A DNA stretch of 64,000 nucleotides, taken from contig NZ_BOOB01000017.1 of assembly GCF_016863015.1 (NCBI RefSeq), positions 1 through 64,000 of the forward strand, written 5' to 3'. The stretch comes from Microbispora amethystogenes (GTDB lineage: Bacteria > Actinomycetota > Actinomycetes > Streptosporangiales > Streptosporangiaceae). The notes under the pieces are model-generated. The model ran no database searches. It saw only the letters and a program-made list of their open reading frames with translations, and was not told the origin of the DNA. Every line of letters begins with the position of its first letter. Position 1 is the stretch's first letter. Below, in pieces: positions 2,767-25,844 of this stretch. The position numbers were made by a program, and so were the translations under genes.

Positions 2767-3729
2767 TCAGGCGGCGCCGAGGACGTCGACGACGAAGACG
2801 AGGGTGTCGGTGCCCTTGATGCCGCCCTGCTCGTTGCCCTTCTTGCCGTAGCCGAGGTCCGGCGGGATCGTCAGGAGCACGCGGCTGCCGACCGGGACGC
2901 CGGTCAGGCCCTGCGCCCAGCCCTTGACGACCTGGTTGAGGGCGAACGTCGCGGGCTGGCCGCGGTCCCAGCTGGAGTCGAACTTCTTGTCGGTGCCCCA
3001 GATCTTGCCGACGTAGTGGGCGAGGACCGTCTGGTCGGCCTTCACCTCCGGGCCGCCGCCCTTGATCACGGTCTTGACCGTGAGCTTCTTCGGGGCCTTC
3101 TCGCTGGTCTTGGTGGTCAGGCCCGGGGCCTTGTCGCCGGCGGAGCCGTCCAGCTTGACGCCGGTGACCCCCGGGTCGACCGCGGTGCCCTGGACCGACT
3201 TCAGCGTGGCCGAGACGACGTCGATGACCAGCACCTGTGAGGTGCTGTCGAAGTCCTGGCCCTGCTGCTTGGCCTGGGTGACCTGGTCGGCGGAGAGGTT
3301 GTCCTTGGCGACCACGGCCATCACCCGGCCGCCGGGCTTGGCGCCGACCAGCGCCTCGTGCAGCGCCTTGGGCAGCTGCGGGCTGACCGTCACGAACTCC
3401 GACTTGCCCTGGTCGTAGTCGGAACCGGCCGCCTTGTTCTCCTTGCCGTCCCAGTTGTAGACCGTGACCTTCGCGGTGAGGACGTCACCGTCCACGGCGG
3501 GCGTCCCCTGACCCTCGAGCACCTTGATAGAGGCCGAGGTGAGAGAGGGCTTGCCCGAGGGGAAGGTCAGGGTCGGCTTCTGGCCGGCCTCACCGGTCAC
3601 CTTGATGGCCGAGGCGGCCGCCTGGCCGCTGGAGGCCGGGCTCGCGGTGGACGTGCTCTTCTGCGCGGTTCCGCAGGCGGCGGCGAGCAGGAGAGGCAGG
3701 GCGGCGACGAGTGCCGTACGACGGCGCAT
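2767..3729 (-). CDS. FKBP-type peptidyl-prolyl isomerase lipoprotein
   Basis: A 320-residue exported prolyl isomerase. The start MRRRTALVAALPLLLAAACG gives a signal peptide with a lipobox-like site at Cys19. After a Ser/Ala linker there are two FKBP-like regions. The first (about 60-190) is degenerate. The second (about 215-320) has the usual core: VLAHYVGKIW, FDSSWDRGQPATF, VVKGWAQGLTGVPVGSR and a C-terminal PPDLGYG segment. I chose the ATG at 3729 rather than an upstream one because the signal peptide begins there and AGGA lies upstream. FKBP genes commonly follow pafA in actinobacteria, as here (71 bases from pafA). Confidence 0.9.
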   Translation of the reverse strand: MRRRTALVAALPLLLAAACGTAQKSTSTASPASSGQAAASAIKVTGEAGQKPTLTFPSGKPSLTSASIKVLEGQGTPAVDGDVLTAKVTVYNWDGKENKAAGSDYDQGKSEFVTVSPQLPKALHEALVGAKPGGRVMAVVAKDNLSADQVTQAKQQGQDFDSTSQVLVIDVVSATLKSVQGTAVDPGVTGVKLDGSAGDKAPGLTTKTSEKAPKKLTVKTVIKGGGPEVKADQTVLAHYVGKIWGTDKKFDSSWDRGQPATFALNQVVKGWAQGLTGVPVGSRVLLTIPPDLGYGKKGNEQGGIKGTDTLVFVVDVLGAA

Positions 3730-3800
3730 ATGGGAATCCTCAAACAGACAGCGGGTCCGGGCCAGGCTACCCGAACCCGCCGTCAGAGCGGTGTAAGAGA

Positions 3801-5159
3801 TCACATACCCGCGATGAGCTTGTCGACCCTCTCGTCCACGCTGCGGAACGGATCCTTGCACAGCACCGTCCGCTGGGCCTGGTCGTTGAGCTTCAGGTGG
3901 ACCCAGTCAACGGTGAAGTCACGCCGCTTCTCCTGCGCCTTGCGGATGAACTCTCCGCGCAGCTTGGCCCGCGTGGTCTGCGGCGGAACCGATTTGGCCT
4001 CGAAGATCCGGACGTCGTCGGCCACCCTCTCGACCGCTCCCCTCTTCTGCAGGAGGTAGAACAGGCCGCGCTTGCGGTGGACGTCGTGGTAGGCGAGGTC
4101 GAGCTGCGCCACCCTGGGCGAGGACAGCGGCAGGTCGTACTTCTGCCTGTAACGTTCAATCATCTGGTACTTGGTGACCCAGTCGATCTCCCGCGAGACG
4201 AGGTCGAGGTCGCCGGTCTCGACCGCGCGCAGCGTGCGTTCCCACAGCTCCAGCACCCGCTTGGCGGTCTCGTCCCCGCCTCGGCGGTCGACGAAGTCGC
4301 GCGCCTTGGTGAGGTACTCCTGCTGGATCTCCAGGGACGACGCCTCCCTGCCGTTGGCGAGGCGCACCCGGCGCCGCCCGGTCATGTCGTGGGACACCTC
4401 CCGGATCGCCCTGATCGGGTTCTCCAGGGACAGGTCCCGCATCACGATTCCGGCCTCGATCATGCGCAGCACCAGGTCGGTGGCGCCGACCTTGAGCAGC
4501 ATGGTGGTCTCGCTCATGTTCGAGTCGCCCACGATGACGTGCAGGCGGCGGAACCGCTCGGCGTCCGCGTGCGGCTCGTCGCGGGTGTTGATGATCGGCC
4601 GGGACCGGGTGGTCGCCGAGGAGACGCCCTCCCAGATGTGCTCGGCCCGCTGAGAGACGCAGTAGACGGCTCCGCGCGGGGTCTGCAGCACCTTGCCCGC
4701 GCCGCAGATGATCTGCCGCGTCACCAGGTAAGGGATCAGGACGTCGGCCAGCCGCCCGAACTCCCCGTGCCGGCCCACGAGGTAGTTCTCGTGGCAGCCG
4801 TAGGAGTTGCCGGCCGAGTCGGTGTTGTTCTTGAACAGGTAGATGTCTCCCGCGATGCCCTCCTCGCGGAGCCGCTTCTCGGCGTCCACGAGGAGACCCT
4901 CCAGGATCCGCTCCCCCGCCTTGTCGTGGGTCACCAGCTCCACGACGTTGTCACACTCAGGGGTGGCGTACTCGGGATGGCTGCCCACGTCCAGGTAGAG
5001 ACGTGCGCCGTTGCGTAGGAAGACGTTGCTCGATCGGCCCCAGGACACCACTCGCCGGAACAGGTACCGCGCCACCTCGTCCGGCGACAGCCTCCGCTGC
5101 CCGCGGAACGTACAGGTGACGCCGTACTCGTTCTCCAGCCCGAATATGCGTCGATCCAT
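3801..5159 (-). CDS. pafA: Pup--protein ligase PafA
   Basis: A 452-residue ligase that uses ATP to join the C-terminal glutamate of Pup to substrate lysines. It begins [13 protein letters not shown], with Glu9 as a Mg/ATP ligand, and has [17 protein letters not shown] with Asp57 as the expected catalytic aspartate. [22 protein letters not shown] and [14 protein letters not shown] are further core motifs shared with glutamine-synthetase-like ligases. Length and key residues match the M. tuberculosis protein. An in-frame GTG lies one codon upstream (5162), but MDRRIFG is the conserved N-terminus, and GGTGAGG stands just before the ATG. Its paralogue Dop is at 20006. Confidence 0.97.
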
Positions 5160-24775: not shown

Positions 24776-24980
24776 GCCCCGTCACCTCCTTCCCCGTCGA
24801 GAACGACTACTCAAGACCCTACCTATCTTGGCGCTGTACGTAACCTGGCCGGGCAGTGTTCGTGTAGTTACGTTGGGTGTTCGGCGTTTGATGCCTTATG
24901 GACCGAATCTTCGGATCAGCATTAGCAACGCATCCGAATGCTCCCGTGTCACGGGGCTTTGCCGGGATGTGGCCGAATCG

Positions 24981-25844
24981 TCACACTTGTTCGGTCCCCT
25001 CTCCGTACGCCCCCTTGGCGGGACGCCTGCGCCGCGGCGGGGGCGTGACGCCGTCCGCCATGCGACGGGCCATGACGAGGAAACCCGTGTGGCCGACCAT
25101 CCGATGGTCCGGCCGGACCGCGAGACCCTCGACATGCCAGTCGCGAACCAGGGTCTCCCACGCGTGGGGCTCGGTGAAACTCCCGTGCTCTCGCAGGGCC
25201 TCCACCGTCCTGGACAACTGGGTCGTTGTCGCAACATAGCAGCAGATAACTCCCCCGGGTGTGAGGGATTTCGCCGCCGCGTCCACGCACTCCCAGGGAG
25301 CGAGCATGTCGAGGACGACGCGGTCCACGTCGGTCTCGTCGAGCGCGTCGACGAAGTCGCCGACCACCAGGCGCCACTGTCCCTGCGGGCCGCCGAAGAA
25401 CTTCTCCACGTTCTTGGTGGCCACCTCGGCGAAGTCCGCGCGCCGCTCGTAGGAGGTGACCTTCCCCTCCGGCCCGGCCGCCCGCAGCAGGAAGCAGGTG
25501 AGCGCGCCCGATCCCACGCCGGCCTCGACGACCCGCGCGCCGGGGAAGATGTCGGCCATGGCCACGATCTGCGCCGCGTCCTTCGGGTAGACCACCGCCG
25601 CGCCGCGCGGCATCGAGACCGCGTAGTCGGCCAGCAGGTGCCGGAACGCCAGGTAGGACGTGCCGCCGGAGGACCGCACCACGGACCCCTCGGGCTGCCC
25701 GATCAGGTCGTCGTGCGGGATCGACCCCTTGTGCGTGTGGAAGACGCCGCCCTCTTTGAGCGTCACCGTGTGCCGCTTGTTCTTGGGGTCGGTGAGCTGA
25801 ACCTGATCTCCAGCCCGGAACGGACCGTGCCTGCGAAAACCCAT
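24981..25844 (-). CDS. trmI: tRNA (adenine-58-N1)-methyltransferase TrmI
   Basis: A 287-residue methyltransferase that modifies A58 in the T-loop of tRNA. It starts [21 protein letters not shown] (small N-terminal beta domain), followed by the SAM-binding fold with [19 protein letters not shown], then [16 protein letters not shown] and [16 protein letters not shown], all typical of TrmI. I chose the ATG at 25844 because the conserved N-terminus begins there; the longer frame upstream is not conserved-looking. TrmI next to arc is the usual actinobacterial order. The gene is divergent from the GNAT gene at 25963. Confidence 0.95.

Follow-up and report, generated by a model that had tools for sequence, protein, structure and literature searches.

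In the loci of the Pup-proteasome system (PPS) described in excerpts of two reports, the six core genes are encoded in close proximity and pafBC lies near pafA (PMC8223512, PMC6466877). Here we describe the PPS locus within a 64,000-nucleotide stretch of the Microbispora amethystogenes genome (contig NZ_BOOB01000017.1; hereafter, the window), which holds the same six core genes, arc, dop, pup, prcB, prcA and pafA, but differs from the loci in those excerpts: it has ten extra genes, two of its junctions hold antisense genes, prcBA is set apart from pup, and the units have separate conserved promoter-like elements. A literature search found no description of the layout of this locus in the clade to which the window belongs. 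We find that the broken loci form a single clade of 34 genomes and that conserved sequence elements precede arc, dop, pup, prcBA and pafA. Probably, the locus consists of separately promoted units, an arrangement that for arc and prcBA at least would be older than the insertions, and the inserted genes settled at tolerant junctions and were subsequently eroded.

The system in the window is a PPS and its departure lies in layout only. Pfam matches identify two Pup_ligase proteins (Dop and PafA), Pup, two Proteasome subunits and the ARC ATPase (OB_N, OB_C and AAA domains), and codon-model gene calls place them in the order trmI-arc-dop-pup-prcB-prcA-pafA-FKBP. The core set is complete; all of it is on the minus strand, and its order and orientation are the usual ones, as an earlier note on this DNA reported. 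The genes are not nearly contiguous, with pup approximately 7 kb from prcB. The genome comprises 8.13 Mb, in which the window is on contig C17, and contains a single Pup match. The core genes, followed by their two neighbours, are:

23012..24775, minus strand: arc, proteasomal AAA ATPase (Pfam Prot_ATP_ID_OB_N/C, AAA)
20006..21523, minus strand: dop, depupylase (Pfam Pup_ligase, 654 bits; start moved to the ATG at 21523)
14867..15079, minus strand: pup (Pfam Pup, 105 bits)
6966..7802, minus strand: prcB, proteasome beta subunit (Pfam Proteasome, 132 bits; GTG start)
6108..6944, minus strand: prcA, proteasome alpha subunit (Pfam Proteasome, 42 bits)
3801..5159, minus strand: pafA, Pup ligase (Pfam Pup_ligase, 561 bits)
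24981..25766, minus strand: trmI-type tRNA methyltransferase, left neighbour (Pfam GCD14, TrmI-like_N)
2767..3729, minus strand: FKBP-type prolyl isomerase, right neighbour (Pfam FKBP_C)

Conserved N-termini and ribosome-site context make the GTG at 7802, the ATG at 21523 and the GTG at 24775 the most likely starts of prcB, dop and arc, respectively. An assembly artefact was ruled out because related gene orders stand in the one-contig relatives G001 and G011 (G numbers denote genomes in our comparison).

Gene orders were compared among loci of the genus, the family, four members of the order and four of the class (G088, G093, G101 and G112), and the counts outside the clade therefore mostly describe family members. 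In a FastTree tree of Arc, Dop, PrcB, PrcA and TrmI from 79 genomes, the broken loci fall into one clade of 34 (Microbispora, Planotetraspora and their kin; local support 100), while the relatives outside it, 45 in this tree, are mostly compact. Gene calls place intervening genes between arc and dop in 29/31 clade loci compared to 10/41 outside, between dop and pup in 30/31 compared to 10/43, between pup and prcB in 28/32 compared to 3/41, and between prcA and pafA in 25/32 compared to 6/31. The prcB-prcA junction is uninterrupted in 77/77 loci (0/34 broken in the clade and 0/43 outside; G093, whose prcA was missed by the gene caller, is not among the 77), and trmI adjoins arc in 31/31 clade loci with both genes called. 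An antisense gene is present in all 28 clade breaks between pup and prcB and in 29 of the 30 between dop and pup; because antisense genes occupy these two junctions, a single transcript running from arc to pafA is unlikely. Measured as domain-to-domain distances between Pup, Pup_ligase, Proteasome and ARC domain matches (pafA and prcA positions came from gene calls, not from the domain match lists), the gap from Pup to prcB exceeds 3 kb in 12/14 genus genomes measured, the window's included, in 10/50 other family members, and in none of four genomes of the order or 36 of the remaining class, where the largest gap is 931 bp.

In G039 (L080-L082), which is sister to the rest of the clade, prcBA is inverted relative to pup at a distance of approximately 15.7 kb, and prcB still has four transporter genes from the sugar island described below beside it. 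Extra PrcB-like genes were seen away from the locus in G018 (two close together; L230, G018:C90), G051 (one; L231, G051:C6) and G016 (one). In a profile search of relatives, no Pup match was found in G066, G067, G080, G082, G085, G090, G091, G100 or G118; three of these (G066, G100 and G118, 95-99% complete) also have no Pup_ligase, Proteasome or ARC-domain match, and it is possible that they have lost the PPS.

Between arc and pafA the window contains ten inserted genes, one at the arc-dop junction, five at dop-pup, three at pup-prcB and one at prcA-pafA (a 25-residue gene call with a score of 8 was excluded). The earlier note had counted about 12; the inserts are real and their identities are as it gave them. 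Five lie on the plus strand and five on the minus strand:

21599..22810, minus strand: acyltransferase at arc-dop, same strand as the core, an old clade-wide insert (Pfam Acyl_transf_3)
19231..19875, plus strand: gene without a Pfam match, divergent from the response regulator and present in Microbispora loci
16545..19064, minus strand: block of response regulator, histidine kinase and PepSY genes, a Microbispora-level insert (Pfam)
15336..16496, plus strand: Ser/Thr protein kinase, divergent from pup (Pfam Pkinase)
12945..14768, plus strand: tandem PAP2 phosphatase, the youngest insert (Pfam PAP2, two stretches)
9639..12854, plus strand: GH38 glycosidase, sugar-island remnant (Pfam Glyco_hydro_38N)
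8153..9376, plus strand: Gfo/Idh/MocA oxidoreductase, sugar-island remnant (Pfam GFO_IDH_MocA)
5229..5915, minus strand: lipoprotein-like gene at prcA-pafA (no Pfam match; lipoprotein-like signal by reading)

No tRNA was found within the window, and no integrase or transposase was found among the inserts by Pfam.

These genes differ in age. The acyltransferase (labelled in 32/34 clade genomes), the kinase (29/34), the lipoprotein gene (25/34) and the Gfo/Idh-GH38 pair are old, and the two-component/PepSY block and the tandem PAP2 gene are younger. In its full form, the sugar island consists of seven antisense genes between pup and prcB, encoding by Pfam family a binding protein, two permeases, an ATPase, a PHP-domain protein, Gfo/Idh and GH38. 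All seven are present in 11/34 clade genomes (G002, G008, G011, G012, G013, G019, G036, G042, G058, G065 and G072), while only Gfo/Idh and GH38 are kept in the window, G001, G007 and G010. The binding protein, two permeases, ATPase, Gfo/Idh and GH38 resemble those of sugar ABC-transporter/GH38 catabolic clusters; the difference is that here they sit inside a proteasome locus and are down to two genes in the window. Translated searches recovered remains of island genes, namely 18% of the ATPase in G003, pieces of 14-71% of four genes in G023, and 20% and 43% of GH38 in G041 and G001, respectively. PepSY is labelled in 11/79 tree genomes, all Microbispora, and in the two genomes that group with the window the two-component genes persist as remains of the histidine kinase (6%) in G001 and of the histidine kinase (22%) and response regulator (29%) in G010. 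Among the clade loci searched, the PAP2 gene is found only in the window and G001, beside Gfo/Idh-GH38 in both. The tree requires only five changes each for the island and the kinase and four each for the acyltransferase and the lipoprotein gene, and with one Microbispora kept, distances correlate with those of Dop for Gfo/Idh (0.72), the acyltransferase (0.71) and the kinase (0.50). A single recent insertion event was rejected because the blocks vary in spread and decay. In other members, the dop-pup junction holds a cobalamin block (CobB by Pfam, the rest by sequence reading). Given this variation and the cobalamin block, the junctions gain and lose unrelated genes, and the core persists.

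Outside the clade the inserts are nearly absent, so the same insertions are not shared by nearly all actinobacteria, an outcome that would have told against the reading of the earlier note. The kinase, lipoprotein, GH38, Gfo/Idh, PHP and binding-protein genes are labelled at the locus in 0/45 outside tree genomes, and the exceptions are an acyltransferase in G051 (one in 45) and relatives of the island permeases at the arc-dop junction of G057; unrelated other genes interrupt some outside loci. The core order of the compact family loci and of Streptomyces and Kitasatospora is like that of the window, and within the family many upstream elements are alike as well. Compact loci differ in being without the acyltransferase (G051 aside), kinase, GH38/Gfo/Idh and lipoprotein inserts and often have an Endonuclease VII gene after pup. 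The earlier description of these genes as nearly contiguous in better-known actinobacteria is true on the whole, except that this nuclease gene frequently follows pup there. In a set of 80 named loci, ten genera include one or more records with island genes at the pup-prcB junction: Microbispora, Planotetraspora, Sphaerisporangium, Microtetraspora, Thermocatellispora, Acrocarpospora, Nonomuraea, Streptosporangium, Planomonospora and Planobispora. Some records of these genera are without them, and in the six Streptomyces/Kitasatospora rows arc to pafA stand side by side. In three Nonomuraea loci (L105, L115 and L121), a gene between pup and prcB reads like a DinB-type DNA polymerase IV. Tandem WYL-domain genes, as expected for pafBC, lie approximately 6.5 kb beyond pafA in the complete genome G001 and approximately 5 kb beyond it in G012; in the window's genome, a similar WYL pair is on another contig (C50).

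Conserved promoter-like elements precede arc, dop, pup, prcBA and pafA, which makes it likely that these units are expressed separately. Four were located in the window as follows:

24804..24828, minus strand: arc promoter-like element AGATAGGTAGGGTCTTGAGTAGTCG (exact search)
21555..21569, minus strand: dop promoter-like element TAGGCT (exact search)
15118..15131, minus strand: conserved element TTCGGGGAAGATAT upstream of pup (alignment, exact search)
7833..7891, minus strand: prcBA promoter-like element GGTTCGC...GAGTAGGGTCGG (alignments)

To compare positions, starts were anchored at conserved N-termini, which succeeded for 22 (arc) to 42 (dop) outside genomes. Before arc, GTAGGNT occurs at -90 to -106 from the anchor in 29/31 clade and 19/22 outside genomes (chance approximately 0.03), and before dop, TAGNCT occurs in 32/34 clade and 22/42 outside genomes (chance 0.01-0.02). 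The TTCGGGGAA sequence before pup is invariant in 25 aligned clade genomes. Because TTGTCGGTC occurs before pup in most Microbispora aligned, a RecA-NDp-like (PafBC) promoter was considered there, by comparison with what we take to be the letters of the RecA-NDp motif; this reading was dropped, as most other clade genera in the alignments do not keep the sequence. Before pafA, TANNNT is found in 31/32 clade and 13/32 outside anchored genomes (chance 0.03-0.04); in the window (5157-5177), TAGGGT ends 6 nt before the pafA ATG. The hexamer ends 6-8 bases before the ATG of pafA in the clade and of dop in many outside genomes, and this spacing suggests that pafA mRNA is probably leaderless in the clade and that the dop message may be so in many outside genomes.

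The element before prcBA is the most widely shared. In Microbispora, the block upstream of prcB is near-invariant from GGTTCGC to the GTG, with conservation ending abruptly upstream, at the edge of the island, and the GGTTCGC...TAGGGTC layout can also be seen in many compact loci. TAnGGTC is present in 28/28 clade and 30/36 outside anchored genomes (chance 0.03-0.04), at a less fixed position; within 300 nt upstream of prcB, it is found in 34/34 clade and 35/44 outside genomes, and upstream of prcA in only 0/34 and 1/43, respectively. The prcB-prcA junction is the sole core junction at which no conserved start-like element was found. Outside the clade, no 7-mer is commoner upstream of prcB than TAGGGTC (30/44; best by chance, 13). 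Among outside loci with neither a called gene nor Endonuclease VII between the pup stop and the prcB start, TAnGGTC is in this interval in 28/36, and six of the eight loci missing it have gaps of at most 116 nt. As arc and prcB elements are thus present in compact relatives, the simplest sequence of events would have their own starts in place before the insertions: separability probably predates the insertions and may have made them possible, with a weaker case for dop, pup and pafA.

GTAGGGTC is found before arc in 28/32 clade and 18/38 outside genomes and before prcB in 23/34 and 25/44, and is rare elsewhere (dop, 0/77; pup, 4/79; prcA, 0/77; pafA, 1/64), which may reflect a shared regulon or a mere housekeeping hexamer. 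We tentatively entertain, while thinking it rather doubtful, that arc and prcBA belong to a single regulon marked by a common TAGGGTC-type start element, apart from pup, dop and pafA, and that this division predates the inserts and sets the break points, leaving only prcB-prcA immune; if so, tagging and destruction would be controlled separately.

Hairpins downstream of the core genes were assessed by comparing the folding of 70 nt after each stop to Markov resamples. In the window, folding exceeds that of the resamples after dop (z = -2.19), prcA (-3.15; a 21-pair stem with one arm at 6070-6090) and pafA (-3.09; z < -2 in 14/14 Microbispora measured). There is no clear hairpin in the window after pup (-1.12) or arc (-0.45), and z < -2 after arc in 11/14 Microbispora. 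The earlier statement that nearly every core unit ends in a strong hairpin thus stands for dop, prcA and pafA and is unclear in the window for pup and arc. By the same test in the window, no hairpin follows trmI, the acyltransferase, prcB or the lipoprotein gene; among other inserts tested, PepSY has one (-2.34) and the kinase and GH38 have none. A scan for U-tract terminators was barely above shuffles (5 vs. 2.6, s.d. 1.8; 4 vs. 1.8, s.d. 1.4) and is uninformative at 72% GC.

In the history that we favour, arc, dop, pup, prcBA and pafA would each have their own promoter rather than forming one operon, and the starts of arc and prcBA would predate the insertions. In the ancestor of the clade or early within it, foreign genes would have settled at tolerant junctions: the acyltransferase between arc and dop, the kinase, together with a small membrane protein, at the dop-pup junction, the reversed seven-gene island between pup and prcB, directly upstream of the prcBA element, and the lipoprotein gene before pafA. 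The inserts would then have been inherited mainly vertically and eroded piecewise, leaving two of seven island genes in the window, which would later have gained the two-component/PepSY block and the PAP2 gene. The prcB-prcA junction, with no element and two subunits needed in equal number, would tolerate no break, and none was ever found.

Several observations weigh against this account. The elements are conserved sequences, not mapped starts, and their promoter role is our reading of them; a generic sigma-70 consensus scan of the window found no promoter, a result that is uninformative at its GC content. The 7-mer test is not promoter-specific, as some 7-mers also exceed chance before trmI, prcA and FKBP genes (before prcA because that region is prcB coding sequence). 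The pup element differs outside the clade, where it was matched by eye, and the dop and pafA elements are absent from 20/42 and 19/32 outside genomes, respectively, mainly the group of G020-G024 and kin; the best support for ancestral separability is therefore limited to arc and prcB. The tree was built from five genes of the locus, which are not independent markers, and 26/76 of its inner branches are open. Five clade genomes (G017, G018, G045, G047 and G071) have no labelled island gene and pup and prcB are adjacent in four clade loci, so that an island in the clade ancestor requires losses. Finally, with one Microbispora kept, GH38 tracks Dop only weakly (r = 0.18; 86/2000 permutations as good, n = 13).

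The earlier note proposed instead that the insertions split an ancestral operon whose pieces acquired new promoters afterwards, so that expression may have become separable. Antisense inserts at dop-pup and pup-prcB in nearly all clade loci, the very sharp conservation of the elements within the clade, and the fact that roughly half or more of outside genomes lack the dop and pafA elements are all in keeping with such a split. Separate expression is indeed plausible; the proposed timing is not supported, since elements of arc and prcB stand at matching places in most outside genomes, those of prcB even in empty junctions, and about half have that of dop. We thus regard a split operon as unlikely. 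It is still less likely that the inserts are functional partners, with the kinase, acyltransferase or sugar genes regulating or using pupylation. The kinase stays beside pup in most of the clade with its catalytic residues mostly intact (Lys in 28/29, HxD Asp in 26 and DFG Asp in 27), so does the acyltransferase gene persist in most clade genomes, and insert distances follow Dop; however, in some relatives (G001, G010, G014, G023 and G041) inserts are absent, shortened or exchanged for others though the core persists, and unrelated genes such as the cobalamin block occupy the same junction in other members.

A last alternative is that the Endonuclease VII gene after pup acts as a homing-type nuclease drawing insertions to the pup-prcB junction. 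In an even sample of 394 class genomes, 85 have an Endonuclease VII (HNH) match, and in 65 a match shares the strand of pup and lies at most 900 nt beyond it, accounting for 73 of 109 matches listed and 35 of the best 40 (matches directly after pup include L236-L239 and most of L240-L265; G034:C445:1585-2130; G030:C7:554898-555116). In the 120-genome set, 25 have an Endonuclease_7 match, which by reading falls between pup and prcB, or beside either at a broken contig or locus, in 14. This clustering would suit homing, as would copies that are partial or contain a stop and the occurrence, in two genomes of the broken clade, of a tandem copy (G039) and a weaker match (G029); no match was found in the window's genome. 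A homing gene should have a history independent of its host, but Endonuclease VII distances follow those of PrcB (r = 0.82, 0/2000 permutations, n = 30; of 35 loci, two had no VDHxH frame and three more no PrcB frame), which points to old vertical descent with losses rather than frequent homing, and junctions besides pup-prcB have also been invaded. We therefore find homing very improbable. Because its distances follow PrcB, the nuclease gene looks like an old resident lost many times, and it may have been the first to part pup from prcBA. Five outside loci hold a gene or an Endonuclease VII match at this junction, and four of them keep TAnGGTC in the gap, in G034 after the nuclease gene.

Taken together, these findings describe how a known locus has been reorganised across a clade; the system itself is of a familiar kind. 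They offer natural experiments on whether Pup, ligase, depupylase, unfoldase and protease must be co-expressed, as a whole clade keeps their genes apart, and a simple rule, that junctions with their own start element accept inserts and prcB-prcA does not. The proposed history predicts transcript starts in named species and draws attention to an Endonuclease VII gene, so far little noted, that many actinobacteria carry next to pup. The reorganisation should be of interest to students of the bacterial proteasome and of operon evolution.

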